A DNA stretch of 64,000 nucleotides from the NCBI GenBank assembly GCA_937936465.1, contig CALDDH010000004.1, positions 62,001-126,000 of the forward strand, in the 5' to 3' direction. Positions within the stretch are counted from its first letter, which is position 1. Each line of letters opens with the position of its first letter. Positions 35,766 to 64,000 of the stretch are shown here, in pieces. A program made the position numbers and the translations under genes. The notes beneath the pieces are model-generated. The model was given only the letters and a program-made list of their open reading frames with translations. It searched no databases and had not been told where the DNA came from. Source of the stretch: an uncultured Mycoplasmatales bacterium. GTDB taxonomy: Bacteria; Bacillota_I; Bacilli_A; UBA3375.

Positions 35766-37909
35766 TTATTCCTTTTTTCTAATTAAAAGAAATCCAGAAA
35801 GTGATAAAATAAATATCCCTAAGATACTTTTTAAATCAAGTGATATTGCTTCTTTTACAATAACATCTTGATTAATTTGCTCACCTGTTGTTGGATCTTC
35901 ATAAAAAAGTTGATATTGTCCATTTTGATTGAGATTAATATTATTATAAATTAGTGTTAATTCTTTAGTTATATTCTGACCATCTTGATTTTCAACTTTT
36001 AGTCTTTTTGGTTTACTTGCATCATTTTTCTGACCTTCTTTTAAAATAATATTTTTATTTTTAACTATTATTTCATTATTTTCATTTGATTTATCTGGCT
36101 CTACAGTAACTATAATTTCTTTGTAACTAATATTATCATCACTATCTATCACACTATATTTAACTTGATATATTCCTGGAGTATTTACATCTACATTGTT
36201 ATTTAAAACATTAATATCACTTGTAATGTCACCATCCTCTTGGTCACTCGAAATCAGATCATTATTTGCATTAAGTGGATTAAATTCATCTCCTAGTTCA
36301 ATAGAAATATTATTAGCTTCAATGGTTAGACTAACATCTGATAAAACTTTAACAGTTATTTCTTTATATCCAATGTTTCCATCGTAATCCTCTACACTGT
36401 ATATAACCTGATATAAACCTATTAATTGATTATTTACATTATTACTTACTATTTTTATTTCATCAATTAAATTACCTTCTTCTAAATCTAAAGCAGTTAA
36501 TCCTATATCCAGACTTAATGGGTCAAACTCCTCTCCCTCTTTTATACTGACATCATTGGCATTAATAGTTGGAGCTTGATTTGTTCTAACAATTACTGTT
36601 ATATTTTTTGTTACTGTATTTCCATCACTATCTATTACTTGATATACTACTTGATAATTACCTGGTGTATTTGCATCTACATTATCACTTATTACAGTTA
36701 TATCTTGAGTCAAGTCTCCATCCTCGAGATCTGTTGCCACTAAGTTATTTCCAGCATTCATTGTATCAAACGAGTCTCCCTCTTTAATAATGACATTATT
36801 AGCCTCAAGTGTTGGCGCATTATCAGTTCTGACTATTACTTCAATCTCTTTAAACGTTATATTCCCATCACTATCTTTTGCGCTATATGTTACTTGATAT
36901 ACTCCTGGTCTATTTTGATCCACATTAGTACTTGCGACTACAATTTCAGTTGTTATATCTCCATCTTCAGGGTTTATTGCCACTAAGTTATTATTGCTAT
37001 TCAGCGGATCAAAAGAATCACCTAATTTTATTGATATATTATTTGCAGTAATAGTTGGATTATTATCAGTTACAACAGTTATCATTATTTGTTTTGTTGT
37101 AATATTTTCATCCTATCTGTTACTTGATATATAACTTTATAAGATCCAGGGACTTGATTATTTACATTATTCTCCATAATTTTAATTTCACTTGTTAAAT
37201 TACCATCTTCAGGGTCTATTGCTACTAATCCATTATTTTGATTTAAAGGATCAAATTTTTCACCAACCTTTATTTGCATATCATTTGCATTAATAACTGG
37301 ATAGTTATTTGATTCAATATCTAAAATATTAAGTTTAAATTCTAATTCACATCTTTTTTCATCACTATTTAAATTAAAATTCAGTATATCTTGATTTAAA
37401 AAAGTCAATTTTGGTTTATTTTCTTGATTTAAATAATTTTTTCTTTTAATAGAACTAACTTTATTATTATTTAATAACATATTATCATCTGGTAAATTAC
37501 TTTTATAAATTGTTTGATTAAAAGTTAAATTTATTTTTTTAGATGTTTTCAATATAATTAATTCAAAATCTACAAATATTTGTTCATTTGTATTTTGATC
37601 GAAAAATGTTAATTTAATTGGATTAATTCCTTCTTCAAATTTAATATTAACATTAAGTTTATTATTACTATTTTTAATTTTCATTTTATTTTTATTACTT
37701 TGATCAAATTTAATATCCAAATAAAATTGATAATCAGTTTGAATATCTTTAAATTTAATAATACTATTATATTCATCAGTTTCAATTGATGTTATCTGAT
37801 AATTAGATTGATCATTATTTTCACTTGAATCAGCATGTAAGTGTAAATATAAATTAGATATAAAGAATGTTAATATTATTAAAAAAACAACAACTTTATT
37901 TATTTTCAT
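35766..37909 (-). pseudogene. Ig-like (DUF5011-type) repeat surface protein, split by a one-base deletion
   Basis: Two frames, 37909-37085 (274 aa) and 37085-35766 (439 aa), are one gene of about 714 aa interrupted at 37112/37113. The first ends YQVTD then shifts. Adding one base after the AG of the next codon gives DSDENITTKQI, exactly the repeat consensus, and continues into the second frame. The N-terminus is a signal peptide (VVVFLIILTFFISNLYLHLHADS). A 180-aa beta-rich region follows, then five tandem repeats of about 81 aa (consensus PEDGDLT--I-V--NNVD---PG-YQV-Y-V-DSDGN) and one degenerate copy. The C-terminus is a TM helix followed by RKKE. It probably displayed an extracellular stalk. 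It may be a pseudogene, a phase-variable gene or a sequencing error. Confidence 0.8.
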
Positions 37910-38738: not shown

Positions 38739-41700
38739 TTAATGTTTATATTTGATATAATAAATTATTAAAACAGGTGTAATTAGTATAATAATCCAAA
38801 TAATTATATGATTATTATTCTCAATTTCATGTGGAATAGTTACTGATGTTGATTTATTTATATTAGTTTTACTATTTTTATTTTCATAATTTTCTTGTTC
38901 ATCTTCATTAACTTCTAAATTAATTTGATTAATTTCACTTTCTACTTCTTCTTGATTAAACTGACCATTTTCTTGTTCTTGATAAATATAATTAACTTGA
39001 TTTGCATATTCATCATATGTATTTGCATCTAAATTATTTAATTCAATTAATTGTTCATAATCATTACTACTTGGAATTAAATTAATTAAAAATTTATTAT
39101 TATAATTATATATATCTTCATAATCTAGATTTTGATTTTGATCACTATTTGATATTGATATGTTTGTTTGAATATTATTAAATGATATTTTAACTTTACT
39201 TTGAATTATATTTAAGTTATATTTAAAACTATTATTTTTGCTTCCCAATACATTCTGTGTATAAATTATTTCTTCTTTTTGATTATTTATAGTTGTAATA
39301 ACATATGTGAAATCATTTGATCTATCTTCAATTTCAGTATAGTATTCTGATTTTACACCAGAGATATTTTCAGCTATTAAAAATTGATCATTTAATTCAA
39401 TGTTATCAAGACCTTCATTTAAGTATATATTATAGACTTTATCTTTATCACCAGTAAATGTTAATGATAATCCATCTTCTAAATATAATAATTCTACTTT
39501 AATTTGCTGATCATCTTGTGTACCTTTAGAACTTTTATTATTTCGCATACTTGATGGTCTTGGTGTATTATATAATGTTGGTTGATTATTTATTGATACA
39601 TTATCAACATTCCATGGTTCATCAGAGTTGTACCCCACATCAAATCCTAATTTATCACTATACCAACTAGCCTCTCCAAGGTTATAACTTGAAATTTGGT
39701 ATCCCTTTTTATTAGTATAGACTGGACTGTTATTCTCATAATAATAATAATAGTTATCAAAATAAATATTTCCAAAGCTTAATGAAGAAAATTCAGTTTC
39801 ATCTTGATACTTAACACTAGTTCCACCATAATATGAATTAACAACATTTGCACCATCATTTGCATAACCAATCATTCCACCTATTTTTAATTTATCTGAA
39901 TCAAAATCTCGTGTATCAAAACTTACATTACTATAAGATTCATGAATATAAGTTTGTGATGATGCGACACCAACCATTGATCCAACATAAGATGTTTCAT
40001 ATGTTTGACCACTTAGATTAATATTTCCACTAGCAGATGAATTACTTATCTCTAAACTTCCTCTACTCTCACCTACAAACATCCCAATACTTGGTGAATA
40101 ATAATCTTGATCATAATCAATATTACCAATAATTGCTAAATCTAATATTTGAGCATCTTTAGTTGATGAGAACAAACCATTATCTGATGTTAAATTACTA
40201 ATTGTATATCCATTACCATCAAATCTACCAGAATAATTATAAGCACCTGTGTAATCAATTCCTGAACAGTTGATACTCTTTGTCAATATATAATTATTTG
40301 ATGAATTATTCTCAATTGCATCTAATTGACTACAACTTTCTATTTCTATAATGTCTGAATACTCAACTTCATAATCTATCGGTTGACTACTTATTGATTC
40401 ACCATCTTCTAAATTATAAGTTATATAATATTGATAAGAATATTCATATGGCTTTTGTAATTCATAATTATAATATTTTTCATTTCCATTTAATGTATCA
40501 ATAATATGATCATTACCATTTGTAATTTCATGTACATCAATTGTATCAATTACTAGTTGTTCCGGATTATATAAATTATCATCAAACATTAACTCAATTG
40601 ACCCCTCGTCTCCATTTACTTCAATATCTTTAATTATTCTAAGTTCATTATTCAACGTTGGATAATTAATTAAATTTACATTTTTAACATTAAAGATTTC
40701 ATCAGTATCCCACTTTAAATTATCTGCATAGAATTGACTATCACTTATTTGTTCACTAGTTACTTTAATTACATCATCTTCTTGAATGTCTTCTTCATAT
40801 TCACCATAATAATAATTATTTGTCTGTTCTCCACCATTTGCAATTAAATGTGTACTTGAACCATAATTTTTCATAAAACCAGTATATAAATTATTTTCAA
40901 ATATTGTCTCAGTTGCACTATATACTAGACCAGAAGAATCTGTCCTACCACCTGTTTGATTAATTAAATCTACACTAGAATAAATATTTTCAACTTCACC
41001 ATTTTCAGTATATCCAGCCAGTGAGCCTATTTTAAATGGGTCCTCCCTATAAGCATAATCACTAATACTTCCAGTTAATATTAAGTTCTCAACAACTGTA
41101 TTTTTCATTGATTTGGCCACTAATCCCATAGGACTATCATTACTACTATTATATTCTAAATCAGAATTCAAATGAAAATTATGAATATATGCATTTTCTG
41201 TATTTTCAAATAAAGTATCAGTCAGTCCATATACCTTATAACCATTTCCATCTAATTCACCTTTAAAATCATATGAAGGAGTAAAATCATTATTTGAACA
41301 ATTTATATTATCAGTTAATATATATGAAATTGATGTGTCATTTGGAATTGCATCTAGTTCTTGACAACTATTAATTTCAATTTTTTCTGGACTTTCTAAA
41401 ATAACATCATATACTGGTAATGAACCTACATACTGATCATCATTTGTATATTCAATATAAAATTCATAATGTTCCCAACTTGATAATTGATCTATTGAAT
41501 AAATTAACTCAGTATCTTTTGGACTTACACTGTCAAGTAATTTTTTTTTATTGTCCAAATAATTACCATAATAAATATTAATATTATCAAATTCTGCATC
41601 AGTTATTTCTTCTCCCCAAGATATTATAATATTTTCTTGAGAATCATCATATTCAACTTCTACAGCATCATCCGTTCTAATTTGATTATACAAAGTTGGA

Positions 41701-44700
41701 TCATTATCAATACTCACACTTTCAACATTAAAAATATTTTCCTGATTATAAGAACCTGTTGACCAATTAAGTGTATCACTATACCAATTAGGATTACTTA
41801 AACTAGAATCTGATACCATTTCAACTCCATCATCTTCATTAGTGTCTAAATAAGAGTTAGAAGTCTTATAATTATTTTTACCATTATCACTGGATATAGA
41901 TTCCATTAACTCAAAACCATATATATTTCCATCAAATAAACTATTTTCTACATTTGCCTCTTTATTAATACCATAAGCATAACTATCATGATTATTATTT
42001 ATATCACCAATTAAATCAACTGAAGAATAAACATTTGAAATATTTAAATCCTCTGATCCTTTACCTACCACTCCTCCATAATTATTGTTACTATTATGCG
42101 AATAAATTTCACCATCAACTATTATGTTTTCAACACTAACATTACCCGATGTTTTATTTGCTATTACACCAATTGCTTGTTTAGTAGAATCATTTATTTC
42201 TTCTGAAACAGATAAATTTTTAACAACAGACCCATCACTTAATGATTCAAACAAACCACCATCTGTAGAATATAAATTTGATATTTGATATCCATCTCCA
42301 TTAAATTCTCCACTAAAATGGCTTGCACCACTATAATCTTGAATACTAGAACAATCAATACTATTTATCAAAATATAATTATAAGTACTATCATCTTCAA
42401 TATCATCTAATTCTTGACAAGTTGATATGGGAATATATGTAGTTTCTTCTATTTTAAATGATAATTGATTTGATGATATTGAACTTCCATCAGCAAATAC
42501 ATATTCAACATTAATTTCTGAAACTTGTGTTTTTGGTCTATACATATATTCTGTTATATTTTTATCAATTTCAATAGTTTCTGAATTACCTTTTGAATCA
42601 TAACTATTTATATTTATATGATCGATATCAACATTATATTCTGGTTTATTCCATCTTAATTCAAAGGTTTGATTATCTGAATTATAATCATCTTCAACTA
42701 ATTCAATGTTAGTTGGAATCATATTAAATAAAACTGGCGGATTTACTTCACTTAGACTTGAGGTGTTCCATGTGTTTATTGTGTCCCATTTTAAATCATC
42801 ACTATAAAATTTAATATCTGATAATTTATTATTACTAATTTCATTTACTTGATTTTCTTGATTTATTACTTGTCCATTAATAATTTCTGCTGAATCACTA
42901 TAATATGAATTACTAATATTAGTGTTTTCTTCACTACTTATTATATAACCAACATCAATGGTTGAACCCGCAGGCAATGATATTTTACTACCACTATATA
43001 AAACATTATTAATCTCAGGTTGAGATGATTGATCAACAGAATTAACAACACCGGATACTTTCCCACCTGAATTAATTTGATTATTAATATAAATATTTAC
43101 TTTTGAGTAACAATCATTGATAGTAAGACCATCACTTTTAGAATTTCCTATCATTCCTCCAATACCAGAAGAAGTATTACTAGCAGAAGATATTGATCCT
43201 TCTACTCCAACATTTTCTATTATTATATCAGGTCCATTTGTTATGTTTGCAAGCATCCCAATATCACCATGACTAACACTAGAATCTTTTGTATTAATAT
43301 TCCCTTTAATAATTAGATCATGGACATATGCTCCAGTGCTTAATGATGCGAAAACTCCATCAGATTCTGTATGAAAATTATATATTTGATAACCATTTCC
43401 ATTAAATTCTCCTGAATATGACCCTGGTGAATTATAATCATTAACATCTGCGCAATCAATATCATTCATTAATGTGTAATTTACTTCACTAAAATTTGGA
43501 ATCAAATTTAATTCTTGGCATGTATATATATATTGAGTATTAGTATTTAAGGTAATATTTACATTTTTTGAATAGTATGTATTATACTCGCCATTTACTT
43601 TTAAGTAATAAATGTGCTCTCCACTTGGATATTGATCATCATATTTATATGTATAAGTAGTTTGATTTGAGTCTAATGTTTTTAAAGTCGTTTCTTCTAC
43701 ACTATATCTATCAATTATTTCTAATGATTGAATTTGATCATTTAAAATTTTTAAATCTTCAAATTCAAATTCAAGCTGTTGCTTTTCCTCATCATTTACA
43801 ACACTAAATTCATAAATACTTAAACTGTTGTATAAATTTGGTTGATGACCGAGAGAAGCTTCCTCAACATACCACGGACTTTGTTCTCCAGTTGCACCTG
43901 TATTCCATTTTAAAACGTTACTGTACCATAATGGCTCAGCTAGTTCATTAGCATCTGCTTCCGTATAATTATCATGACTAGTACTTGCTTCTGATATATA
44001 AGTAACATAATTATTTGTTGAATCACCATTTGTAATAAAATAAGTTGATGAAGTTGCAGCTCCACTTAGAGAACCAGAATAAATACTATTTTCCACATTT
44101 GTATAATAACCAAATCCTGCAATAGTACAAACTGTTGAAGTATTAACATCAATATTAACAGATGAGTAACTTTCATGTATATTTGTTTCACCACTACTTG
44201 AACCTTTTCCAATTACTCCTCCAATGAAAATTTGATTTTTAGCATCAACTAAAATATCCCCATCAACTAAAATATCATATATTTCCACATTTCCTGATGT
44301 GCTATTTGCTATCATTCCAACTGAAGATTTAGAGTAATCAATGTATATATTCCCAATTACTTGAACATTCTTAATTACAGCTCCATCTATTAAACTATTG
44401 AATAGACCTGAATAATCTGATTGAATATTAGAAACAGTATAACCATTCCCATTAAATTCTCCACTATAATTACTTGCACCAGTGTAGTTACCATTTGAAT
44501 TACAATCAATATTTTGTGTTAATTGATAATTCACATCACTATCATCAGGTATTTGATCTAAATCTTGGCATGTACTTATATCTTGATAATCAACTTCAAC
44601 TACATCTGAAGTTGAATCAGCAAACATTTGCCACTCCTCATCAGGCATATAATATACTTCCGTTTCAAATATATCAATATTATCAATATCAGTTTGAACA

Positions 44701-47700
44701 ACTAATTTATTTTCTCCATTTGCAATGTCAAATTGAAAATCTTCAGAACCACTATAAGTATCTTCTGAACTTACAAAATCAACATTCCATATATATGATC
44801 CATCATTCATTTGTTTTAAATCAACTAACTCAAATAAAATGTTATCAGTTACATTCTTAATTGATAATGTATTATCTGTGAATCCCATACTACTTGAATT
44901 CCCACTAGGTTTGCTACATGAATTATCCATATTAATATTTGTTGAAGTTCCTCCTTCTGTATAATTCAAACTACTACATTGTCCATTATATTGTGTTGAA
45001 TTATTCTCATAAGCAAATTGATCATTGTATTTTCCCTCTTCATCATATACATAATTACCTGGATTTTTAGTTTCAGTTCCCACAACATTATTTAATCCAA
45101 CTAATTGACCAAATGAATAATATTTATCATTAAGTGGTGATTTATAAATAAACGTACCAAAATTATCATTTAATTTATAACTATTACCTTCTTCTAATTT
45201 AGAATTTATTACTACTTCATAAAATTCTTGATTATCACTTCCATAGTAATCCATTACTTTTGAATTATCATATACAGCATTAATCGTATATTCAAAATTA
45301 GGATTATTTTGAATTGAATACTCATAAGTTTCGATTGTTGAATCAATATTTGATTCTACTAATTGATAATCTTTTTGATCAATATTTAATTCAATATTTA
45401 ATTGTTCATGTCCAGGATTATAAATTTCAATTGTTGAATTGACAGCATTACTACTTTCAATATTTGTTATATTTGTAATTTGAGGTGAAATATATTTATT
45501 ATACTCTGTCTTAATTGTTCCTTCAATTGGCTCATTATTTATAACCTTTACATACTCATTACCTTCATAATCATCATAAGATGCTTGAACATCAATTGAA
45601 AATTGATCTCCAGGATTATAATCTAAAACAATGAAACCATCATCTTGTACAATATAATTATTGGATATCTCTTTGCCTGTTTGACTATCAATTAATTTAT
45701 ATGTAGCATCAGTATTTTTATATTCATAAGATTCACTTATCAAAATTGAATCAGTAGCAATATCTTTTAGATTAAATTCTGGATTTATTGGATTATAATT
45801 AATAAACCTACGCTGATCTTGACTATCTGAGACCAAGTAATAATCATTTTCATTATCATACATTACTCCATTGATCCCAGTTGTAATTTCTGTCTTATCA
45901 TTTACAGGCACTACTTTACTATTATTTTGATATTTATTTTTGATTTGCTGATCACCACTTTGCTCACATTGATAATTAGTCCCATCTTCATAAGTTACAT
46001 AAATATTAGAATATTTTGTATCATCAATATTATATCCTGTTGCACTATCAATGTTTTTTACTTTTTTATCTTCAGGTTTACAAGCTTGACTACTTTCTTG
46101 TGCATCAGTTTTAATAACATAGATATTTCCTAAAACATCTTGGATATAAGTTGCTGATAAGGTATATTCAATATCTACTATTTTTAAACTTCCATTTAAA
46201 ATAGTTATAGGAATTGGATTGATTGTATGTGATCCTTCAGGTGAATCTGATCCAACCATTCCAAAGGTTCCATCATCTCTTATAAAATATATAATATCTT
46301 GATTACCAGTTGCATAAATCATATTTTCATCTTCTAATTCATTAACATCCCAATTTATTGATTCACTATCTGCTATAACCAATTGATTTTTTCCATTATT
46401 CATATATAAATTAATTATCGGTAAATTACTGCCATTAATCACTCCAATAATTTGGAAATCTATTATACCACCTTGATAGATACTAAATAATTGTTCGTAT
46501 TGATCTACTTGTTCTTTTTCTCCCCAAACATCAATACTTTTATCATCTTTTAATCCAAAATGAACTTTACCAATTGAATCTATTTTTATATAATTATCAT
46601 TTTCTGGCATAGCAATATAATCATTGTATTGCTCATTATCTTCAGATATTAATTTTCCACTTTGTTGTTGCGTAGTTACAGAATCACTTGTCATGTATGA
46701 TCCTTGGACATTATCTACAGTATTAATATAATTACTTTCATAAGTTTCAATACCATTTGTAACTTGCACTTGAACTATTATATTTTGATCAATATCTTCA
46801 ATTATATAATTTTCTTTATTTGGAGAAAAAGATTCGATTTCCTTGTATTCTGTATCTTCTTCTCTCATAGATATTTTAATATCACTACTATTATCAAGCA
46901 TACCATATGAAACAACTAAATTAGAATCAATTCCTTGATGTACACTAATACCTTCTGAATATTCAATTAAAAATGACGGGAAATTATCAGTATATTCATA
47001 CTCATATATTTCATCAAGATTATATCTATTTTGATATGTAATATTTGTAATTTTATATTTATTTTTTCCAACTTCACCATTTAAATCTAAATTATACATT
47101 TGGACTTCATCATATAAATGTTCATTTAAGGCTTCATATGTTTCTTTTTTACCATCTTCATCTTCAATTGTAATATCTTTTACAATTAATCCATCTAAAT
47201 TATTTTCTAAATTAAATTTAAACGTTCCAACTTCACCAGGAATAATTAAATCTGGATTTTGATAGATCATTTCTTGATTAATAATATTAGGAATATGATT
47301 GATTTGATTTATATTTAGAAAATTATTTTTATCACTTCCATAAGCAGTATATGTTCCGTCTTGATAATAAACGATGGCATTATTTGTTGTTTGAACATCT
47401 ACTTTAATTACTTGCTTTAAATTACCTAATATATAATCTGGAACGTCTTGAATTATTAAAGTGGCTTCCGGATTGCTAATTATTTCTAATGTTTGATCAG
47501 TTAGTGCTATAAGTATTGGTTTATTATCAATGTTTACATATTGTAATTGTTTATATTCATCATTTACTTCATAATCAGGATTCCCATCTAACTTATCATA
47601 ATAAGAAATATCATCTTCATCTGTAAGTGTAAAAGCACTTTGACCTAATGAAAAATCTAACACATTTATTTTTTGATTAGTATAATTTCTTGGAATTAAA

Positions 47701-50636
47701 TCAATTGTCTGATCTTGTTTCTCATCAGTTGATCCACCAACATATAATTCCCCTTCTTCAGTTATTAGACTTACTGAATAATCATTTATATATAATTTAC
47801 TTACTTGTTCTTTGTTTAAGTAAGGTGCTAAACTAATTCTTTGATGATCATCTGTTCCAATAAGTTGATATGTTCCATCATCTAACACAACACCAACAAG
47901 ATAGCTATCCGCTTGTTGAGTTGGACTTAAATAAATATCAATGATATGTCCTTGATATTGTTCTAACTCAGAATTAATTAAATCAGCATTTATACCCCAT
48001 GCAACTGCTTCTTTACTTTTATTATTCAAAGCCATAGCAGTATTTTGTTCAGCTATTATTTTATTATATTCACCTTTTGGAACATCTAATAATACTGAAT
48101 CATCTTCGCCATACGCCATTAATTCATTATTATCTTGAATATATATTGAAGTATCTTCTGTTATTGCAGATGTTGAAATTTTACTTGTAAAAAGAATTTC
48201 ATCACTAGAAAGGTTAATCATATTAACTTCTGTATTTTCTGAAGAAATACTACATTCAATATTCCAAATACTATCAGTTTGATAGTTCATATCAAATTCT
48301 ATTTGATTATATCCTTCACTTAGTACTTCAGAATATTCTTCTGTATGATTCCCATCATTAATTACTATGTTTAAAGTGTAATCTTCTCTTGTTTGTGCAA
48401 ATTGCCAGTCAACAACAATTTTATCATTAGTATTAACATATATCTCTGGTTCAATCAAATGGGTTGAAATCATTTTCTCATTATAAGTATAAACTTCTGT
48501 TTGATCTAGTGGATTTATATATTCAATTTCTGTAAGTATGTAAGTTTCTTCACTATATTCTGTAGAATTTGAAAAGGGGATACTACTAACTTTATATAAT
48601 TCTTGATCTACTTCAACCACATTTTTATATTTTTTATCATTTAATGTTACAGATTCAATTTGATATTGATCTGGATTATCTATTTCTAAAAATAGATTTG
48701 TATCATCTTGATCTACAATAACTTCTGACATATATGAGTCATTTAATTCAGGAGTTTTAAAGGGAATTTTGATACTATCATTTTCAATGAAATTATATTC
48801 TGATATTTCTCCATTACCAAGATCACTAAAGATAGTTATTGAAAATATATAATCAATACCTGCTTGTATATTTTCAAAAATAAATTTATACTCACCATTT
48901 GCCTTGTTATTATTAGTAATAGTCGCAACTGATTGATCAGTTTCTTTATCTAATAAATTTATTTCAATATTTTTAATTGATTGTTCAGGATCATCAACTG
49001 TTAAATTATAAATTATATTTCTATCTTCATCAATTGTAAAATTAGTTTTAATTGAATTTTGATCATATTTTTCTTTTAAAATATATCCACTTATTTGATT
49101 ATAAACACTTTGATTAGAATTATACTTTTTATTATTATAAGTAAAATCATATGAATCAATAAGTCTATCAATTTTACCTGGAATTTCACTATCAACTTCA
49201 ACATCATTCACTACAATTTGATTATCTGAAATTTTTTCAATATTTGTATATGTAACTCCCTCAATTACAACCTTATTTATTTTCATATTTTTTATTGAAT
49301 CTGAAAATGTGATTATTAGATCTGATGATTTAGCATCTGATTTAACATAACCAAAATCAGATGTTAAAATATAAGGCACATTTTCCACTGTATAATCTAA
49401 ACTATAATCTAAATCAATTATATCAGAGCTATCTTTTGAGACTATTAGACTTGTAAGACCAAGTCTATATTGACCTGCTTTTTTTGGAGATAGATTAAAA
49501 TAGAATGACCCATTCTTATCGGTAGAATTAATCATAAAAGTTCCTTCAGATGTGTTTAAACTTATAATTTCAAATTCATCTGGATTTTCAATATCAATTC
49601 TAACTTGAATTGGTTCATATGGAGTTATATCTTTTGTTACTATTTCAGCATTTGTTATACTAGGGTTTGTGTAATTTTCAATTGGCTCAGTTACTTCAGG
49701 ATTTTCAGGTTTATCTTCTCCTCCTCCATTATTATCAGCATTAATCTCTCCTTCAATATTGTTATTGTTATTATTGTTTTCACTAATGTCATTATTTTCA
49801 CTATTATCAATCGTTTGTTCGATAACTTCGGGTTCTGATATAATACTTACTGGCTTAACAGTTAATTGATCAATGATTTGTCCATCTTCATTAATAATTG
49901 TATTGTTTTCATCAATGAATGCCTCTTCAAAATTCAAATCTTCACTTTTTACGCATTCAATATATTGGCTATCATTTATAGTGTCTTCATCAATTGATAA
50001 GTCCCCATAATCAATTGAATAGAAACCAGAATACTCATATTCAGAAGCCGTTAATTGTCCATTCAACATTGTATAAATATTTATTATATCCTCATCTACT
50101 TTATAAAAACTCATTGATGGAATAATAATATCTTCTTGACCAACATTTAAAATTGATTCATAAAATAAAAAGTATTCAAATTCATTATAATAAATAAATG
50201 TATCACCATATTTTTCTTTAGTTTTATTAATATCTAATTCAATACTTTCTAAAGATAAACTATTTTTATTTGAAACACTCATTTCACCATTATTATCCTT
50301 TACAATACTAGATGGTTTTAGTTTTATAGAGTAAGGTGTTTCATCAAAAATTAATAGTTCTGAGTCCGTTGTTGTTTGAACTGTTTTTTCATCTTTAGAA
50401 AATAATGGTATATTACTTAAATTATATATAAGACCATTTTGATTATCAATTTTAGCAGAATCATCATTTGTTGAAAAAGATAGTTTACTATCAACATCAA
50501 CTATATTATTGTTACTTAATACAGTTTGTGAATCAGCATAAACTTTATGGAAAATATTATTGTTAATAAATAAATATATAAATCCAATTACTATTATTGA
50601 AACAATTAAACCTAATACACTTTTTTTATTTAACAT
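38739..50636 (-). CDS. Giant secreted modular protein (3965 aa) with RCC1-like, FN3-like and GLUG beta-helix modules
   Basis: The true ATG is at 50636, 5 bases after GGGAGA. It overlaps the end of the 5-helix membrane gene by 11 bases, so the protein is translationally coupled to the ATPase operon. Residues 5-30 form a signal helix with a probable cleavage at VYA-DS. Next come a 200-aa unique domain, an Asn/Glu/Pro-rich linker (about 275-325) and FN3-like domains. Two stretches with RCC1-like blades follow (about 815-1135 and 1315-1610, e.g. AVAWGIN, LYVGGSTDE, IDVWGEKEQ). Residues about 2020-3690 are five copies of a 350-aa module. The C-terminus is a TM helix and short basic tail (YYIKYKH), anchoring the protein outward. 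The size, about 430 kDa, recalls gliding or adhesion giants of Mollicutes. Function is inferred only. Confidence 0.85.
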   Translation of the reverse strand: MLNKKSVLGLIVSIIVIGFIYLFINNNIFHKVYADSQTVLSNNNIVDVDSKLSFSTNDDSAKIDNQNGLIYNLSNIPLFSKDEKTVQTTTDSELLIFDETPYSIKLKPSSIVKDNNGEMSVSNKNSLSLESIELDINKTKEKYGDTFIYYNEFEYFLFYESILNVGQEDIIIPSMSFYKVDEDIINIYTMLNGQLTASEYEYSGFYSIDYGDLSIDEDTINDSQYIECVKSEDLNFEEAFIDENNTIINEDGQIIDQLTVKPVSIISEPEVIEQTIDNSENNDISENNNNNNNIEGEINADNNGGGEDKPENPEVTEPIENYTNPSITNAEIVTKDITPYEPIQVRIDIENPDEFEIISLNTSEGTFMINSTDKNGSFYFNLSPKKAGQYRLGLTSLIVSKDSSDIIDLDYSLDYTVENVPYILTSDFGYVKSDAKSSDLIITFSDSIKNMKINKVVIEGVTYTNIEKISDNQIVVNDVEVDSEIPGKIDRLIDSYDFTYNNKKYNSNQSVYNQISGYILKEKYDQNSIKTNFTIDEDRNIIYNLTVDDPEQSIKNIEINLLDKETDQSVATITNNNKANGEYKFIFENIQAGIDYIFSITIFSDLGNGEISEYNFIENDSIKIPFKTPELNDSYMSEVIVDQDDTNLFLEIDNPDQYQIESVTLNDKKYKNVVEVDQELYKVSSIPFSNSTEYSEETYILTEIEYINPLDQTEVYTYNEKMISTHLIEPEIYVNTNDKIVVDWQFAQTREDYTLNIVINDGNHTEEYSEVLSEGYNQIEFDMNYQTDSIWNIECSISSENTEVNMINLSSDEILFTSKISTSAITEDTSIYIQDNNELMAYGEDDSVLLDVPKGEYNKIIAEQNTAMALNNKSKEAVAWGINADLINSELEQYQGHIIDIYLSPTQQADSYLVGVVLDDGTYQLIGTDDHQRISLAPYLNKEQVSKLYINDYSVSLITEEGELYVGGSTDEKQDQTIDLIPRNYTNQKINVLDFSLGQSAFTLTDEDDISYYDKLDGNPDYEVNDEYKQLQYVNIDNKPILIALTDQTLEIISNPEATLIIQDVPDYILGNLKQVIKVDVQTTNNAIVYYQDGTYTAYGSDKNNFLNINQINHIPNIINQEMIYQNPDLIIPGEVGTFKFNLENNLDGLIVKDITIEDEDGKKETYEALNEHLYDEVQMYNLDLNGEVGKNKYKITNITYQNRYNLDEIYEYEYTDNFPSFLIEYSEGISVHQGIDSNLVVSYGMLDNSSDIKISMREEDTEYKEIESFSPNKENYIIEDIDQNIIVQVQVTNGIETYESNYINTVDNVQGSYMTSDSVTTQQQSGKLISEDNEQYNDYIAMPENDNYIKIDSIGKVHFGLKDDKSIDVWGEKEQVDQYEQLFSIYQGGIIDFQIIGVINGSNLPIINLYMNNGKNQLVIADSESINWDVNELEDENMIYATGNQDIIYFIRDDGTFGMVGSDSPEGSHTINPIPITILNGSLKIVDIEYTLSATYIQDVLGNIYVIKTDAQESSQACKPEDKKVKNIDSATGYNIDDTKYSNIYVTYEDGTNYQCEQSGDQQIKNKYQNNSKVVPVNDKTEITTGINGVMYDNENDYYLVSDSQDQRRFINYNPINPEFNLKDIATDSILISESYEYKNTDATYKLIDSQTGKEISNNYIVQDDGFIVLDYNPGDQFSIDVQASYDDYEGNEYVKVINNEPIEGTIKTEYNKYISPQITNITNIESSNAVNSTIEIYNPGHEQLNIELNIDQKDYQLVESNIDSTIETYEYSIQNNPNFEYTINAVYDNSKVMDYYGSDNQEFYEVVINSKLEEGNSYKLNDNFGTFIYKSPLNDKYYSFGQLVGLNNVVGTETKNPGNYVYDEEGKYNDQFAYENNSTQYNGQCSSLNYTEGGTSTNINMDNSCSKPSGNSSSMGFTDNTLSIKNVTDNILFELVDLKQMNDGSYIWNVDFVSSEDTYSGSEDFQFDIANGENKLVVQTDIDNIDIFETEVYYMPDEEWQMFADSTSDVVEVDYQDISTCQDLDQIPDDSDVNYQLTQNIDCNSNGNYTGASNYSGEFNGNGYTVSNIQSDYSGLFNSLIDGAVIKNVQVIGNIYIDYSKSSVGMIANSTSGNVEIYDILVDGDILVDAKNQIFIGGVIGKGSSSGETNIHESYSSVNIDVNTSTVCTIAGFGYYTNVENSIYSGSLSGAATSSTYFITNGDSTNNYVTYISEASTSHDNYTEADANELAEPLWYSNVLKWNTGATGEQSPWYVEEASLGHQPNLYNSLSIYEFSVVNDEEKQQLEFEFEDLKILNDQIQSLEIIDRYSVEETTLKTLDSNQTTYTYKYDDQYPSGEHIYYLKVNGEYNTYYSKNVNITLNTNTQYIYTCQELNLIPNFSEVNYTLMNDIDCADVNDYNSPGSYSGEFNGNGYQIYNFHTESDGVFASLSTGAYVHDLIIKGNINTKDSSVSHGDIGMLANITNGPDIIIENVGVEGSISSASNTSSGIGGMIGNSKSDGLTINDCYSKVNIYINNQINSGGKVSGVVNSVDQSSQPEINNVLYSGSKISLPAGSTIDVGYIISSEENTNISNSYYSDSAEIINGQVINQENQVNEISNNKLSDIKFYSDDLKWDTINTWNTSSLSEVNPPVLFNMIPTNIELVEDDYNSDNQTFELRWNKPEYNVDIDHININSYDSKGNSETIEIDKNITEYMYRPKTQVSEINVEYVFADGSSISSNQLSFKIEETTYIPISTCQELDDIEDDSTYNYILINSIDCSSIQDYSGASHFSGEFNGDGYQISNLYSTDGGLFESLSDGSVVKNLSVSEEINDSTKQAIGVIANKTSGNVSVENIIVDGEIYSHNSNNNYGGVVGKGSEDLNISNVYSSVDLIGDINNNHDSYAYGINKEANVENSLFDGNIYGFELMESISSDNGKNNYKTSNSYLDTNEDDGVEMVSDSSLSNPNWYSDTLNWSTGSYNQENIFNVESVSIDNDPTLYNQIRTDDAVEVEYDDSQENIIISWGEEITDAEFDNINIYYGNYLDNKKKLLDSVSPKDTELIYSIDQLSSWEHYEFYIEYTNDDQYVGSLPVYDVILESPEKIEINSCQELDAIPNDTSISYILTDNINCSNNDFTPSYDFKGELDGNGYKVYGLTDTLFENTENAYIHNFHLNSDLEYNSSNDSPMGLVAKSMKNTVVENLILTGSISDYAYREDPFKIGSLAGYTENGEVENIYSSVDLINQTGGRTDSSGLVYSATETIFENNLYTGFMKNYGSSTHLIANGGEQTNNYYYGEYEEDIQEDDVIKVTSEQISDSQFYADNLKWDTDEIFNVKNVNLINYPTLNNELRIIKDIEVNGDEGSIELMFDDNLYNPEQLVIDTIDVHEITNGNDHIIDTLNGNEKYYNYELQKPYEYSYQYYITYNLEDGESISSQPIDYEVEYSDIIEIESCSQLDAIENNSSNNYILTKSINCSGIDYTGAYNYSGRFDGNGYTISNLTSDNGLFSSTKDAQILDLAIIGNIDYDQDYYSPSIGMFVGESRGSLEISNSSASGNINLSGQTYETSYVGSMVGVASSQTYIHESYSNVSFDTRDFDSDKLKIGGMIGYANDGANVVNSYYGGTSVKYQDETEFSSLSFGNIYFDNYYYYYENNSPVYTNKKGYQISSYNLGEASWYSDKLGFDVGYNSDEPWNVDNVSINNQPTLYNTPRPSSMRNNKSSKGTQDDQQIKVELLYLEDGLSLTFTGDKDKVYNIYLNEGLDNIELNDQFLIAENISGVKSEYYTEIEDRSNDFTYVITTINNQKEEIIYTQNVLGSKNNSFKYNLNIIQSKVKISFNNIQTNISISNSDQNQNLDYEDIYNYNNKFLINLIPSSNDYEQLIELNNLDANTYDEYANQVNYIYQEQENGQFNQEEVESEINQINLEVNEDEQENYENKNSKTNINKSTSVTIPHEIENNNHIIIWIIILITPVLIIYYIKYKH
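39560..44585 (-). repeat. Five tandem ~1.05-kb coding modules (GLUG beta-helix plus FN3-like domain)
   Basis: Inside the giant gene, module starts lie near 44580, 43530, 42430, 41375 and 40345, a period of about 1025-1100 bases. Each begins with a variant of TCQELD-I----NY-L---IDC, then FNGNGY-I-N, GLF-SL--GA-VKNL, (I/V)GG-IGKG-type GLUG strands, an LxWYSD-LKW-T motif, P-LYN, and an FN3-like domain of about 80-90 residues. All five copies keep a Cys pair about 25 residues apart, which suggests a disulfide. DNA identity between copies looks low, so they are old duplications. Confidence 0.85.
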
Positions 50637-51096
50637 TTTTTCTCCCATTTAATATTATAATTTTATTTTTAAGCTGAAGTATAAGATATATATTTAAACT
50701 AAATAGTATAATTAATTGAAATAATAATAATGTTATTGAATATCCAAAAATAACATTATTATAAATTTGATAATAATACATTTTATTACTAATAAATAAG
50801 ATTAACATATTGATTCCTAAAAATAATAAATTATGTATATTATTTTTTGAAACAATAAAAAATATTATAGTTTGAATAACTATGATACATAAATATAAAA
50901 GAAAATAATTAAAAATTGTTGAATTAATAATTATCATAAGTAAATATACGTATACAAGAAAATTAACTAAAAGAATTGATAAATATATTTTATCTTTTTT
51001 AGTTCCTAATTTAATAATAATTTTTATTGATTTTTTAAGTGCTCTTTGATTTAATATTAAAATTAGAACACTGCTTATTAAGATTGTAATAATCAT
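50626..51096 (-). CDS. Five-helix membrane protein of the ATPase operon, unknown family
   Basis: A 156-aa very hydrophobic protein with about five TM helices and the basic loop KKSIKIIIKLGTKKDK between the first two. It sits between epsilon (1-base gap) and the giant gene (11-base overlap). It does not match subunit a: there is no Arg in a late helix with the usual polar partners, and it is too short. It does not match AtpI either, which would normally lie at the other end of the operon. A role as a membrane adaptor linking the ATPase to the giant protein is a guess from position. Confidence 0.6.
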   Translation of the reverse strand: MIITILISSVLILILNQRALKKSIKIIIKLGTKKDKIYLSILLVNFLVYVYLLMIIINSTIFNYFLLYLCIIVIQTIIFFIVSKNNIHNLLFLGINMLILFISNKMYYYQIYNNVIFGYSITLLLFQLIILFSLNIYLILQLKNKIIILNGRKNVK

Positions 51097-51097
51097 T

Positions 51098-53595
<2,498 letters not shown>

Positions 53596-53599
<4 letters not shown>

Positions 53600-55029
53600 T
53601 TAGAAATCCCGATTATTTTATTTAAATTTAAACTTAATTCTTTATTGCTAGTATCTTTATTTTCAATTATTTGAATAAACTCTTGAGTAATATTGTTTTT
53701 GATCTTTTCCTTAAAGATTGAAATATCTATTGAATTTAATTGATTACTTTTAAAGGCATGTAAACATATTAATTGCTCTACCTCAGACATTGGTGTCAAT
53801 TCATCTTGCTTAAATAATTCATATAACATTTTTCCATTTTCATAATCATTTTTCACTTGACCAATTAAATCCATACCAACAATTGAATTTTTCTCAATCA
53901 CTACGTATTTAATATATTGTGATAAAATATTTTTACTTTTTTCTTTCATTATTGTACTTTGTGCAGATGATCCAATTCTAGATACACTATATCCTAAATC
54001 AACACTTGGTTTAAATCCTTTTTGAAATAAATCACTAGATGTGAAAATTTGACCATCTGTAATACTAATTATATTTGTGGCAATAAAAGAAGAAATATCA
54101 CCACCTTGTGTTTCAATAATTGGTAAAGCAGTTATTGATCCTTTTTCAATACATGTTGCTCTTTCTAAAAGCCTTGAATGTAAGTAAAAAATATCACCTG
54201 GGTATGCTTCTCTTCCTGGTGGATTATTCATAAGTAATGACATACTACGATATATTTCAGAATGTTTAGTTAAATCATCGTATGTAATTACAACATCATA
54301 TCCTTTTAACATAAATTCTTCGGCAACACTTGTTGCTGAAAAAGGAATTAAGTATTTTGACATCATATTATCATTTGAAGAAGCAACGAATATTATTGTA
54401 TTATCCATAGCATTATTATTTATTAGTTGATCTTGAAGAATTTTTATTTTTGATAACTTTTGTTCAATTGCAACATATATATTTATTACATTATTATCAT
54501 TTTGATTAATCATTGTATCAACTGCAATTTGAGTTTTTCCAGTTTCACGATCACCAATTATAAGTTCTCTTTGGCCACGTCCAATTGGAATACAACAATC
54601 AATTGATAAAATACCTGTTTTAAGAGATCTATCAACTTTTTGACGATCAATCAATGGTATTAAATTCCTTTCAATCGGAACTTCTTTAAATTCAGTAATA
54701 TCTTCACTAACATCAATTGGGTTACCATTATAATCAACAACTTTTCCTAATAATTGAGATGAATATTTTACTGATATAATTTGATCAGTCATTTCAACAA
54801 AGCTACCTGATTTAATTTTACCCTTTGAAAGAATCCCAACTGTTGTTGTTTTTTCATCGTACTGTAAAATCAAACCTTTTTCTTGTTCACCAATTTTAAC
54901 AATTCCATTTAATTTAGGATTGTCTAATCCCATAATAGTTGCAATACCATCTTTAAATGAAGTTATATATGCAGGTTGTGTATTAAGGTGTTTTTTAATA
55001 CTTTTTTTAATCTCTACTTTATTATCCAA
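53596..55029 (-). CDS. F1-type ATPase alpha subunit
   Basis: A 477-aa alpha subunit, about 25 residues shorter than usual. The nucleotide loop is IIGDRETGKTQIAVDTMINQ, with Glu for the usual Gln. AIEQKLSKI stands for the usual AIGQKRS. NPPGREAYPGDIFYLHSRLLERA and ISITDGQIF are conserved. The Arg finger is kept in YSVSRIGSSAQ, so catalysis by alpha3beta3 should work. The changes at the non-catalytic site set it apart from housekeeping alpha subunits. It overlaps the b-delta gene by 8 bases. Confidence 0.94.
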
Positions 55030-55969
55030 TTTTTATACCTCCATCAATTATTTTAGTCTCAAAATTTTTAATTCCCTTTAATAATGTCAAATCAAACCGA
55101 TAAAATTGATCTTCAATGATTAATCCATCTAATATTTTATGGTCTTCAACAATAATTAATTCAATGTTTTTTAAGAACTTCAACTGTTTAATACTTTCAA
55201 TTATTTTTGATTTTTTTTGATTAACAATAATTTTTATATATCTTTTTTCTTTTTGTTTTTGAAGTATTAATTCTACTTCCTCAAAGATGCTTAATAGCTT
55301 ATCAAGATTATTTAGTATTATATTATAAAATGCATTATATATCTTTTGATCTAGCTTAAATTCTTGTAAAAATGAATTAATAATTAATTTCATTTTTTCT
55401 TTTTCAATATCTCTTAATAAATATATATCTGATAATTCAATTCCACTTTTAATTTGTGAGAATATTTCTTCATAATCTTTATTGCCATTAAATAATTTAA
55501 CTAAATTACTAGATTCTAAATAAAATTTATTAAATACAGAATCTCTTTTATAAATTTTATATAAATATGAGTCAAGATTTTTTGTCAATTCTACTTGGAA
55601 ATCAGTATAAATATTATCATTTATATATGCATAATATTTATTTAAATCACTAGGATTAATATAAATTTGTTTTAGTTCACTAATTTTCAATAGCTTTTCT
55701 ACTTCTTTATTTTCTAAATAAACTATTTTAGATTCATAGTTTTCTATTTTTTGCTTTAATTCTTTAATTTGATTATAATATTTCTTTTTTTCAACCTCAG
55801 ATTTTTCTTTAACATTATCTACAGATTTATTTATATCAATTTTCTTCTGATTAATCTGTTCCGATAGTAATTCTAATTCTTTATTCTCTTTATCTAATTC
55901 TTTAGTTTGTATTACTAACGAAACTTTATACACTAATATAGATAAAATTATTACAATAACTATAAACAT
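55022..55969 (-). CDS. Fused b-delta (peripheral stalk) subunit
   Basis: A 315-aa protein in the place of separate atpF and atpH. Residues 1-20 are a TM helix (FIVIVIILSILVYKVSLVI) followed by about 75 residues of Lys/Glu coiled coil, as in subunit b. Residues about 110-220 are helical, like the N-terminal delta domain. The last 60 residues (LIIVEDHKILDGLIIEDQF, then DLTLLKGI) resemble the C-terminal strands of delta (GG-----D---DGS---L--L). A b-delta fusion is known in mycobacteria, but there it has other domain details. This would make a complete stator stalk even though no subunit a is present. Confidence 0.75.
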   Translation of the reverse strand: MFIVIVIILSILVYKVSLVIQTKELDKENKELELLSEQINQKKIDINKSVDNVKEKSEVEKKKYYNQIKELKQKIENYESKIVYLENKEVEKLLKISELKQIYINPSDLNKYYAYINDNIYTDFQVELTKNLDSYLYKIYKRDSVFNKFYLESSNLVKLFNGNKDYEEIFSQIKSGIELSDIYLLRDIEKEKMKLIINSFLQEFKLDQKIYNAFYNIILNNLDKLLSIFEEVELILQKQKEKRYIKIIVNQKKSKIIESIKQLKFLKNIELIIVEDHKILDGLIIEDQFYRFDLTLLKGIKNFETKIIDGGIKIG

Positions 55970-55979
55970 AATTCACCCA

Positions 55980-56234
55980 CTATACCAAGTAAGGATTTGC
56001 GAAAAGCAAAATCCCTGCAAATAATAATATTATTATTAATACAACAAATGCCATAAATCCAATTATTAATGATGTTTGTAAAATTTCATTTTTCACATCT
56101 GGATTCCTACCAATTGCTGTTGCTGCTTTTGATCCTATCATCCCTAAAGATATTGCAACTCCTAGTGATCCTATTCCTACTATTAAACCTACTGCTTGCA
56201 AACTAGCACTTACTACTACTTCAATGTTTTCCAT
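55980..56234 (-). CDS. ATPase c-like subunit lacking the ion-binding carboxylate
   Basis: An 84-aa hairpin of two TM helices joined by the loop AIGRNPDV, the hallmark of subunit c (R-Q/N-P). A frame 7 codons longer exists, but AAAGG precedes the ATG at 56234 and overlaps the end of the 800-aa gene. Helix 1 (VGLIVGIGSLGVAISLGMIG) keeps the glycine pattern for tight ring packing. Helix 2 reads SLIIGFMAFVVLIIILLFAG: at the place of the essential Glu/Asp there is Val (or Phe in an ungapped alignment), and neither helix contains any acidic residue. The ring can probably assemble but cannot carry H+ or Na+. Confidence 0.85.
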   Translation of the reverse strand: MENIEVVVSASLQAVGLIVGIGSLGVAISLGMIGSKAATAIGRNPDVKNEILQTSLIIGFMAFVVLIIILLFAGILLFANPYLV

Positions 56235-56235
56235 A

Positions 56236-58638
56236 TTATAACCTTTCAATTCCATTTTTATTTAGTTTATATATTTCTTTTTCAATACCAACATATAGTT
56301 CTTCTTCTTCTTTAGATATATCATTTATTTCAACTTCATCTAACTCTTGGTACACATTATCTACATCATTATATATATGCATAACTTTTTTTTCATCAAT
56401 TGCAAAAATAACATCACCAATATTATATATTTCAATAAATTCATTTAAGATACTTATTTTATATTCATCAATTACTTGATCTGATTCTAAGTCATATTTT
56501 TCAATTGATGAACCCTTATTAATGTAATAATAATTGTCTGTATATAAATAATCATCAGAAATAATTGATGAATACTTAATTTCTTGAGTAACTAATTCAT
56601 CACCTTTTGAATCTACATATTTTAATTTATAATAATAATCACCAAACTGATTGCTTGTAAATTCAATTTTATTATCCATACCAACAATATATTCTTTTTT
56701 TACAATTTGATTATAATCTTGATTATTCACACTCATTAGTACACTAATGCTACAATTATTTAAAAGAATTGGCAACCCACTGAATTTTATTTGATATTTA
56801 TTATTTTTATTTGTGATGCTTTCAATTTTGAAATCAATTGAATAATTAGTATAAGGAGTAGTATATTGATCAACTATTTGCTCATCACTAATTAAGTTGA
56901 CTACAGCATAATATTCACCCTCTGAAACTAATCCATTTTCTAATCCAAAATCTTCATGTTGATCAATTGATTGTCTTTTTGTGACTAATTTATCATTTTT
57001 ATTGTATATATTATATTCAAGATAATCATATTCACCTTCAATACCTAAATCAATTATAACTTTATTATTATCACTATCAATTTCAACACTATTAAATGAA
57101 CTAGATTCTTCAAGTGTTGTAAAAAAGTATTCTCCATCAACATCTAACTCATTATTATTATAAACAGCATCAGTAATACTTACTTTATAATCTGTACCAG
57201 CTTTTAAATCAATAAACTCTACTGTTTGAAATGAACTAGTTGCTAATTTTGTGTTTAATGGAATTTTAATAAATTCTTCATATTCACCGCTATTATTTTC
57301 TTCTAACATAACATTTGCTGAATCTAATTCGATGTCATCTAGAATTGATACATTTACAATAGCACTATTAATTTTCATTAGTTCAACAACAATATTACTT
57401 TGAACACTTTCTGTTGAAAATTCTTTACTATCAATTGTTTCTTGTTCAATACCGGAACCAAGATCATATGAAACTTTTAAATTAGCAGTATATTTATTAT
57501 TTGGCTGTAAACCAACAATCTTAACAACACTCTCTTCAATTGTTTGAGTAAAAATAACTTGACCAGTTTCATCAACAATTTCAATTATTGGAGTTGTTAC
57601 TAATGAACCTGATAAATCTGAATAACTAGCATTTATTTCAGCACTAATTGCCGTTACATTATTAATACTTGATATTAAACCTGTAGGAACATGTTTTTTA
57701 AATAAATCTTCATACATATCCTCTGTAATAATTATATCTTCAGAACCACTACTTGAACTATTGGAGTTATCTTGATTAACTTGATTATCAGTTGTTGTAG
57801 TATTTTTTGTATCAGTTTTTTCAGTAGTTACATTATCATTATCAACCTGATTACTATCAGGTGTACTTTGAATTTTTTCATCACTAGTATTTGATGTATC
57901 ATTTTTTTCATCTTTTATTTCTTCTAATGTTTCCTGATCATCTGTTGATTTATTTAAATCTTCATACTGAGAGCTACTCCCACCCAATTCAGTTAGATCA
58001 GTAATACTTCCATCTGAATAAATCAATTGTTCATTTCCAGTTTTAAATATAACACCATTATTTAATTCGATATCTTTAGCTTCTGAATATTTATATACAT
58101 CATCTTTTGTATATAAAGTTGGATTACCAGCCTTATCAATAAAGACATCTATTATGCCTTCAATGTGCAAATCACCAACTGAAACATCACCTAATATAAT
58201 GTATTGGCGATCACCTGTCTTAATAACAGTTCCATTTGGTACAGTTGCTTGATCAATTGTATATGTATCTGCTTTACCATTTATTAAAGAGCCTTTATAT
58301 ATATTGAAAAATGAATTATCCTCTGTAACAACAACACCATCAGATAAAAGGGTTGCACTATTATCGTTTACAACTGGTGCTACTTTTGAATTTGATAACT
58401 TGATTTTTTGATCTTCATAATCAATACTTTGTTGCCCATTGTAACTTTCATTTATTACTGTCTGTTGACTTGTAATATACTTTTGATTATATTGATCGTA
58501 AAAGACCGTATCAGCATCAACAGTAATTGCTTCTTCTTTACCTTTAATTGCAAATAAATCCATCCCAATACAAAGTAATAAAACTATAATAATTGGAATT
58601 AAAATTATTATTAAATTCTTTATACTTATTTTTCTCAT
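56236..58638 (-). CDS. Membrane-anchored surface protein (800 aa) with FN3-like domains, coupled to the c-like subunit
   Basis: Residues 8-25 are a TM helix without a clear cleavage site, so the protein is probably an N-terminally anchored ectodomain. Residues 35-230 form a unique beta-rich domain (NSFFNIYKGSLINGKADTYT, IILGDVSVGDLHIEG). A linker of about 90 residues is rich in Asn, Asp, Ser and Thr (230-315). FN3-like domains follow (IVGLQPNNKYTANLKVSYDLG, IDLKAGTDYKVSIT). The last 110 residues look like beta-propeller strands (YYINKGSSIEKYDLESDQV). The stop is one base before the c-like ATG, and it stands where subunit a should be. Function unknown. Confidence 0.82.
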   Translation of the reverse strand: MRKISIKNLIIILIPIIIVLLLCIGMDLFAIKGKEEAITVDADTVFYDQYNQKYITSQQTVINESYNGQQSIDYEDQKIKLSNSKVAPVVNDNSATLLSDGVVVTEDNSFFNIYKGSLINGKADTYTIDQATVPNGTVIKTGDRQYIILGDVSVGDLHIEGIIDVFIDKAGNPTLYTKDDVYKYSEAKDIELNNGVIFKTGNEQLIYSDGSITDLTELGGSSSQYEDLNKSTDDQETLEEIKDEKNDTSNTSDEKIQSTPDSNQVDNDNVTTEKTDTKNTTTTDNQVNQDNSNSSSSGSEDIIITEDMYEDLFKKHVPTGLISSINNVTAISAEINASYSDLSGSLVTTPIIEIVDETGQVIFTQTIEESVVKIVGLQPNNKYTANLKVSYDLGSGIEQETIDSKEFSTESVQSNIVVELMKINSAIVNVSILDDIELDSANVMLEENNSGEYEEFIKIPLNTKLATSSFQTVEFIDLKAGTDYKVSITDAVYNNNELDVDGEYFFTTLEESSSFNSVEIDSDNNKVIIDLGIEGEYDYLEYNIYNKNDKLVTKRQSIDQHEDFGLENGLVSEGEYYAVVNLISDEQIVDQYTTPYTNYSIDFKIESITNKNNKYQIKFSGLPILLNNCSISVLMSVNNQDYNQIVKKEYIVGMDNKIEFTSNQFGDYYYKLKYVDSKGDELVTQEIKYSSIISDDYLYTDNYYYINKGSSIEKYDLESDQVIDEYKISILNEFIEIYNIGDVIFAIDEKKVMHIYNDVDNVYQELDEVEINDISKEEEELYVGIEKEIYKLNKNGIERL

Positions 58639-63896: not shown

Positions 63897-64000
63897 TTAA
63901 TTTGATACTGGCGTTGAAAATGTTTTTGTGTATATTGGATAATCTTTATAAATTCCATTATCATTATTCAAATTAAAAGTGGCGTTAACTATTAGTTCAT
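63897..64000 (-). CDS. C-terminal end of another surface protein (partial)
   Basis: The last 33 codons of a gene entering from beyond the right edge, ending TAA at 63897, 24 bases before the 1735-aa gene. The sequence contains YKDYPIYTKTFSTPVSN, the closing strand pattern of the FN3-like domains in the neighbours. The surface-protein part of the operon thus continues upstream outside the window. Confidence 0.65.
   Translation of the reverse strand, partial: ELIVNATFNLNNDNGIYKDYPIYTKTFSTPVSN

Follow-up and report, generated by a model that had tools for sequence, protein, structure and literature searches.

The ion coupling of rotary ATPases rests on a carboxylate in the c ring. The window (the whole stretch of 64,000 nucleotides that was analyzed) contains on its minus strand a gene for a c-ring hairpin in which this residue is missing (bp 55980-56234; 84 amino acids; here called c*), within an operon that also encodes an F1 motor and giant surface proteins. 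What could a rotary ATPase with such a ring be doing?

A c subunit without its carboxylate

The c* reading frame is intact (an alternative earlier start at 56255 would give 91 amino acids), and its product matches PF00137 (ATP-synt_C) above the gathering score (31.5 bits, E=2.2e-7), which bears out the initial annotation of this gene as subunit c. Helix 2 reads SLIIGFMAFVVLIIILLFAGILLF and has neither Asp nor Glu; the codons on which that annotation relied (GGA TTT ATG GCA TTT GTT GTA TTA) are the same on re-reading. With the loop Arg as the reference for numbering helix 2, the Glu of canonical c subunits falls at position 20. The window protein has Phe there, or Val with a one-residue shift, and these are the two residues that had been assigned to the ion-binding place. 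Its acidic residues are E2 and E5 at the N-terminus and D46 and E50 in the loop, and none lies inside either membrane helix.

The central claim of the initial annotation, a c-ring subunit that lacks the essential Glu or Asp, extends well beyond this one gene. Helix 2 is free of acids in 39 of 39 genuine c* proteins (the window and 38 from other genomes; L113, which would have been a 40th, is a spurious reading frame and was left out), so the loss is shared by every c* homolog, while 72 of 73 canonical c subunits gathered in the same way have Glu at position 20, a contrast well outside what chance would give. That position is mostly Thr, Ser, or Ala in c*, and an alignment of the homologs that was searched in both helices for a displaced carboxylate found none conserved; the observation that had been named as refuting the initial annotation, a displaced carboxylate in every homolog, thus did not appear. 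E39, a glutamate at the loop edge, occurs in c* and canonical c alike but is replaced by Thr in the window, and an N-terminal Met-Glu is nearly constant in c* and sits at the outer end rather than in mid-membrane. The C-terminus of all 39 c* proteins is Asn-Pro followed by a few residues, an ending found in only 4 of the 73 canonical proteins.

Close pairs of c* genes have dN/dS values of 0.006-0.05; the median over all usable pairs is 0.18, with dS near saturation in many of them. By these ratios c* is under purifying selection, and this, together with 39 sequences that have no acid, argues that the loss in the window is not decay. Decay or mis-assembly in the reduced genome of a symbiont might have been suspected, since the genome that holds the window is small, with a completeness of 87%, and the window alpha and beta sequences lie on a long branch. 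The window operon is intact and its genes are coupled, however, and the same loss recurs at low dN/dS in many lineages, isolates among them; the homologs refute this explanation for the window c*, and it retains scarcely any probability.

With a profile built from the window c and a single relative, seven c proteins that lack the acid (the window's among them) were found in 395 genomes of the class. They come from four families, and a clear score gap separates them from canonical c. Five of 397 genomes in a family sample around Kineothrix carry c*, and a scan of named genomes added many more. These come from Lachnospiraceae, with Kineothrix alysoides KNHs209 and strain G11 as isolates among them, and from Oscillospiraceae, Clostridiales Family XIII, Peptococcaceae, Erysipelotrichaceae, and other Bacilli. 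The distribution of c* is thus sporadic, across gut and host-associated bacteria.

The F1 motor, its putative stalk and the ion path

The usual gene order, seen in about 45 loci, is P1-P2-c*-b/delta-alpha-gamma-beta-epsilon-5TM-P3-P4, in which 5TM is a protein with five transmembrane (TM) helices and P1 to P4 are surface proteins; some members of family f10 depart from it, with gamma downstream of the gene for the TM protein and with P3 upstream of c*. The window operon comprises P1, P2, c*, b/delta, alpha, gamma, beta, epsilon, a TM protein, and a 3969 amino acid giant, with no separate P3, and its genes from P2 through the giant overlap or nearly abut. All of them are on the minus strand. 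Mycoplasma code 4 was considered for the window and dropped. TGG outnumbers TGA by 41 to 3 in sampled window genes, and two of the three in-frame TGAs stand directly before the C-termini of alpha and beta, where they are naturally read as stops; code 11 was therefore adopted, which the organism appears to use in place of the Mycoplasma code, and alpha and beta were re-bounded.

The F1 part consists of alpha (53596-55029; 477 amino acids, TTG start; PF00006), gamma (52706-53599; 297 amino acids; PF00231, E=8e-33), beta (51343-52713; 456 amino acids; PF00006), and a short epsilon with the N-terminal beta-sandwich only (51098-51346; 82 amino acids; PF02823, 28.3 bits). The catalytic Glu, P-loop Lys, and Walker B Asp of beta and the Arg finger of alpha are kept in the window and in 22 relatives (23 of 23), as the initial annotation had said for the window; alpha also keeps its P-loop. 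In one locus (L087:4888-9138, and at the same place in L138) alpha carries a C-terminal extension of about 950 amino acids that ends in repeated EMLD motifs, and shorter extensions are present in L094, L102, L126, and L130.

Between c* and alpha lies a gene for a putative peripheral stalk protein that resembles b and delta (55022-55969; 315 amino acids), with one N-terminal TM helix, a long coiled region, and a FliH/delta-like C-terminal end. The window protein matches PF02108 FliH below the cut-off (E=7.5e-4), and the profile of its family matches the C-terminus of canonical delta weakly (40%). Proteins at the same position in other loci likewise have one TM helix.

Subunit a, which would be needed to form the ion channel, was sought in the c* operons and is absent from every one of them. 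Six draft genomes (G054, G288, G330, G220, G534, and G535) have no subunit a anywhere, and c* is their only c; a borrowed subunit a or a mixed ring is thus unlikely in these. Kineothrix and two other genomes (G344 and G028) have a canonical ATP synthase in a separate operon. Only c* and its own alpha and beta were found in the assembly from which the window comes, and since that assembly is 87% complete, a canonical operon may be missing from it. A subunit a that did turn up there, on contig C25 (L047:1-14760), is ATP6 of a contaminating animal mitochondrial genome; this 14.8 kb contig carries COX1-3, CYTB, ATP6, and ND genes on one strand, and it was binned with the bacterium and probably comes from its host.

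Could c* enter a mixed ring with canonical c, borrow the subunit a of an ordinary ATP synthase, and serve as a regulator or a change of gear? The nearest solved relative of the c* profile is Acetobacterium woodii c1 (4bem_J), and A. woodii has a hybrid ring containing c1. The c* operons carry their own full F1, however, and with the six draft genomes that have neither another c nor a subunit a this makes a mixed ring very improbable.

A second way to keep pumping would be a displaced ion site, formed by the N-terminal Glu or the loop Glu of c*, or with a basic residue of the 5-TM protein acting as in subunit a. The near constancy of Met-Glu speaks for it, as does the middle of helix 2 in the 5-TM proteins, which has Arg or Lys in 74% (for example, residue 67 of L121:12045-13256) and faintly recalls the stator Arg of subunit a. 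Identity of the 5-TM protein with subunit a was rejected: the profile match is only 0.3%, and a match to solved structures is absent. The window counterpart by position, a polytopic membrane protein (50626-51096; 156 amino acids) that stands where other loci have proteins of four to five TM helices, had no family match and resembles the 5-TM profile weakly (10%). By eye, mid helix 2 is polar in the window and in some of family f10, and the window residue is apparently Asn, not Arg. Set against the absence of any conserved acid in either c* helix, the Thr, Ser, or Ala at position 20, and the missing subunit a, these features leave continued ion pumping quite improbable. The sequences give good support to the initial annotation's prediction that the enzyme hydrolyzes ATP and is unable to move ions: the catalytic residues are intact, and both the carboxylate and subunit a are gone.

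Surface proteins and the work of the motor

The surface proteins P1-P4 are membrane anchored and range from 240 to 3969 amino acids. In profile comparisons they have an N-terminal membrane-proximal domain in common (P1/P2 98%, P1/P3 91%, P1/P4 75%). In the window, P1 (58665-63872; 1735 amino acids) is a giant fn3-type protein with a TM anchor (PF00041 fn3, E=1.2e-8), and P2 (56236-58638; 800 amino acids) has a TM anchor, the membrane-proximal beta domain, and fn3-like repeats. The P4-like giant (38739-50648; 3969 amino acids) has N- and C-terminal TM helices and repeats, and its start overlaps the end of the preceding gene. Window P1 matches the P1 profile at 86%, P2 the P2 N-terminal profile at 97% (E=1.4e-11), and the N-terminus of the giant the P3 domain profile at 92% (E=5e-7); thus the window operon belongs to the same system beyond its c subunit. 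A further TM-anchored surface protein of 713 amino acids, whose 3' end is at 63897-64000 and whose remainder lies outside the window (L049:898-3039), is separated from P1 by 24 bases and is part of the same gene run. Downstream of the giant, two abutting reading frames (35766-37909; 439 and 274 amino acids) may be parts of one surface protein.

At nine loci, mostly in Lachnospiraceae, the 5-TM protein is fused to P3, which ties the membrane part to the surface domain. A model of one such fusion (pLDDT 92) has five TM helices, a sixth TM helix, and a beta domain, and comparison of that beta domain with solved structures gave no convincing relative. A P2 relative consists, by structural comparison, of a TM helix, a beta domain, and two fn3 domains, of which only the fn3 tandem matched a solved fold. 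The P1 of Kineothrix (L091:1697-8239) contains a collagen-like triple-helix stretch (PF01391, E=1e-12), and in family f10 genes that look like TasA/camelysin-type surface fibers follow the c* operon in place of P4 (L048:8024-11142 and L085:12588-13379). A promoter scan upstream of the surface genes gave sites not above chance, and comparison with PHROGs gave no match.

An operon so rich in exported proteins could also mean that nothing is turned. The c* ring would then be only a membrane anchor and F1 a cytoplasmic ATPase that, for example, feeds P1-P4 for export as FliI does; the weak FliH match of the stalk protein and the distant family relationship of alpha and beta to FliI fit such a role. 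But alpha and beta are both kept together with gamma and epsilon, the parts of a rotor shaft, and in the tree they group with F-type F1 and not with FliI or V-type proteins. In addition, the N-terminal TM anchors of P1-P4 are ordinary, and it is not obvious why mere anchoring should require a conserved hairpin that forms a ring. This explanation is unlikely, though it is the one among the alternatives to which we give real weight.

The reading that we favor, as rather probable, is that the c* complex is a mechanical actuator, a rotary F1 ATPase that has lost its coupling to ions. This reading draws on the acid-less c*, the absent subunit a, the intact F1, the synteny, the domain common to P1-P4, the 5-TM/P3 fusion, and the Mycoplasma precedent described below. 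The acid-less rotor, the missing ion-channel subunit, and the operon shared with giant surface proteins together suggest that the ATP hydrolyzed by the motor probably serves to move something at the cell surface and not to pump ions. In such an actuator, ATP hydrolysis in alpha3beta3 would turn gamma, epsilon, and the full c* ring, which would be unable to bind H+ or Na+ and would have no subunit a to form a channel. A stator made of the b/delta-like protein, and probably of the 5-TM protein as well, would hold alpha3beta3 fixed relative to the membrane, and rotation of the ring would be passed across the membrane to the TM-anchored P1-P4. Their common membrane-proximal beta domain could form a collar over the rotor, and their fn3, collagen-like, or repeat-built arms would be the parts that are moved, with an output of surface movement or remodeling such as adhesion, gliding, or ligand handling. 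The weak b/delta profile match, the Arg or Lys of 5-TM helix 2, and the nearly constant N-terminal Glu of c* count against an actuator. Whereas the loss of ion coupling is supported by sequence, the mechanical output is something that we infer; the initial annotation's choice between mechanical work and a mere anchor stays a matter of interpretation, for which giant surface proteins with a shared membrane-proximal domain now supply a strong operon context.

Relationship to other rotary ATPases

In trees of alpha plus beta that covered canonical F1, c*, and, of the Mycoplasma motors, Type 3, all canonical F1 (Bacillota, Chloroflexi, Patescibacteria, and Opitutales) lie on one side (100/99), and c* and Type 3 together lie on the opposite side. 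When Type 3 is left out, all c* proteins form one side of a branch (100/98); its inclusion puts it among the c* lineages, and an AU test then rejects a clade of c* alone (p=0.0135). The trees place Type 3 either next to the c* clade or inside it. With non-Bacillota F1 as the root, a single origin of c* is suggested, and Type 3 would descend from the c* clade. Both points are a lead and not a result, since the branches of the window and of Type 3 are long and the tree program issued a warning about long-branch joining.

The widest proposal, which is tentative and somewhat short of probable, is that a class of ion-uncoupled rotary ATPases occurs across Bacillota, in which a whole c ring would be the transmission that cranks giant surface fibers, and from which the c-less gliding and antibody-handling motors of Mycoplasma would descend. 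A conserved family that keeps the ring subunit without its carboxylate would separate rotation from ion transport in nature; it offers a testable system for F1 torque doing other work across a membrane, and it is present in a culturable gut bacterium, Kineothrix alysoides. The c* clade may also be an intermediate that helps to account for the origin, so far unexplained, of the gliding and MIB-MIP motors of Mycoplasma. A search of the open-access literature (most subscription papers and preprints were outside its scope) gave no report of an acid-less c ring, a Bacillota version, or this operon, and only the Mycoplasma papers were relevant.

Action on surface proteins has been proposed for both Mycoplasma motors: gliding is the proposed output of Type 2, and the extracellular MIB-MIP system requires Type 3 (PMC11864180, PMC12994834). 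The Type 3 F1-like X0 ATPase (PMC3369863, PMC12994834) resembles the c* system in having an F1-like motor that is tied to surface proteins and no subunit a, but it has no c, b, or delta homolog and has instead a 12-TM protein 1, a protein 2, and a protein 5, none of which gave a match in profile comparisons with the membrane, stalk, or surface proteins of the c* loci. Against the curated Type 3 alpha/beta families (MSC_0619, MSC_0618), window beta scores 439.8 bits (cut-off 570) and Kineothrix alpha 295.8 bits (cut-off 520). The Type 2/G1-ATPase of Mycoplasma mobile (PMC11864180, PMC8406192) is likewise an F1-like motor that runs on ATP, with giant surface proteins as its proposed load; it is a twin motor with GliD/GliE, reported from four Mycoplasma species and with no c ring homolog described, although a b/delta origin has been suggested for GliD. 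Kineothrix proteins score 379 against a cut-off of 600 bits and 376 against 850 bits in the curated Type 2 families (MMOB1660, MMOB1670). Because the Type 2 and Type 3 clusters have no c, b, or delta homolog, the c* system is a member of neither family, and it would work like them.

The F-type ATP synthase has in common with the c* system alpha, beta, gamma, the epsilon N-domain, the c hairpin, and, putatively, a one-TM stalk protein. The c* system departs from it in that its c has no carboxylate, subunit a is absent, epsilon is short, a single protein apparently takes the place of b and delta, and the operon includes surface proteins. N-ATPases (alternate F1F0) and the c* system are alike in occurring, in some genomes, as a second F-type operon. 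The N-ATPases retain both subunit a and the ion site, and the Kineothrix proteins are far below their cut-offs (TIGR03305/03322/03324), as they are below every relevant NCBIfam cut-off. In A. woodii c1 and in V-type c, the c subunit is duplicated and one hairpin has no carboxylate. Those rings keep the carboxylate in their other hairpins and pump ions, whereas c* is a whole subunit without a carboxylate, and several genomes that encode it have no other c.
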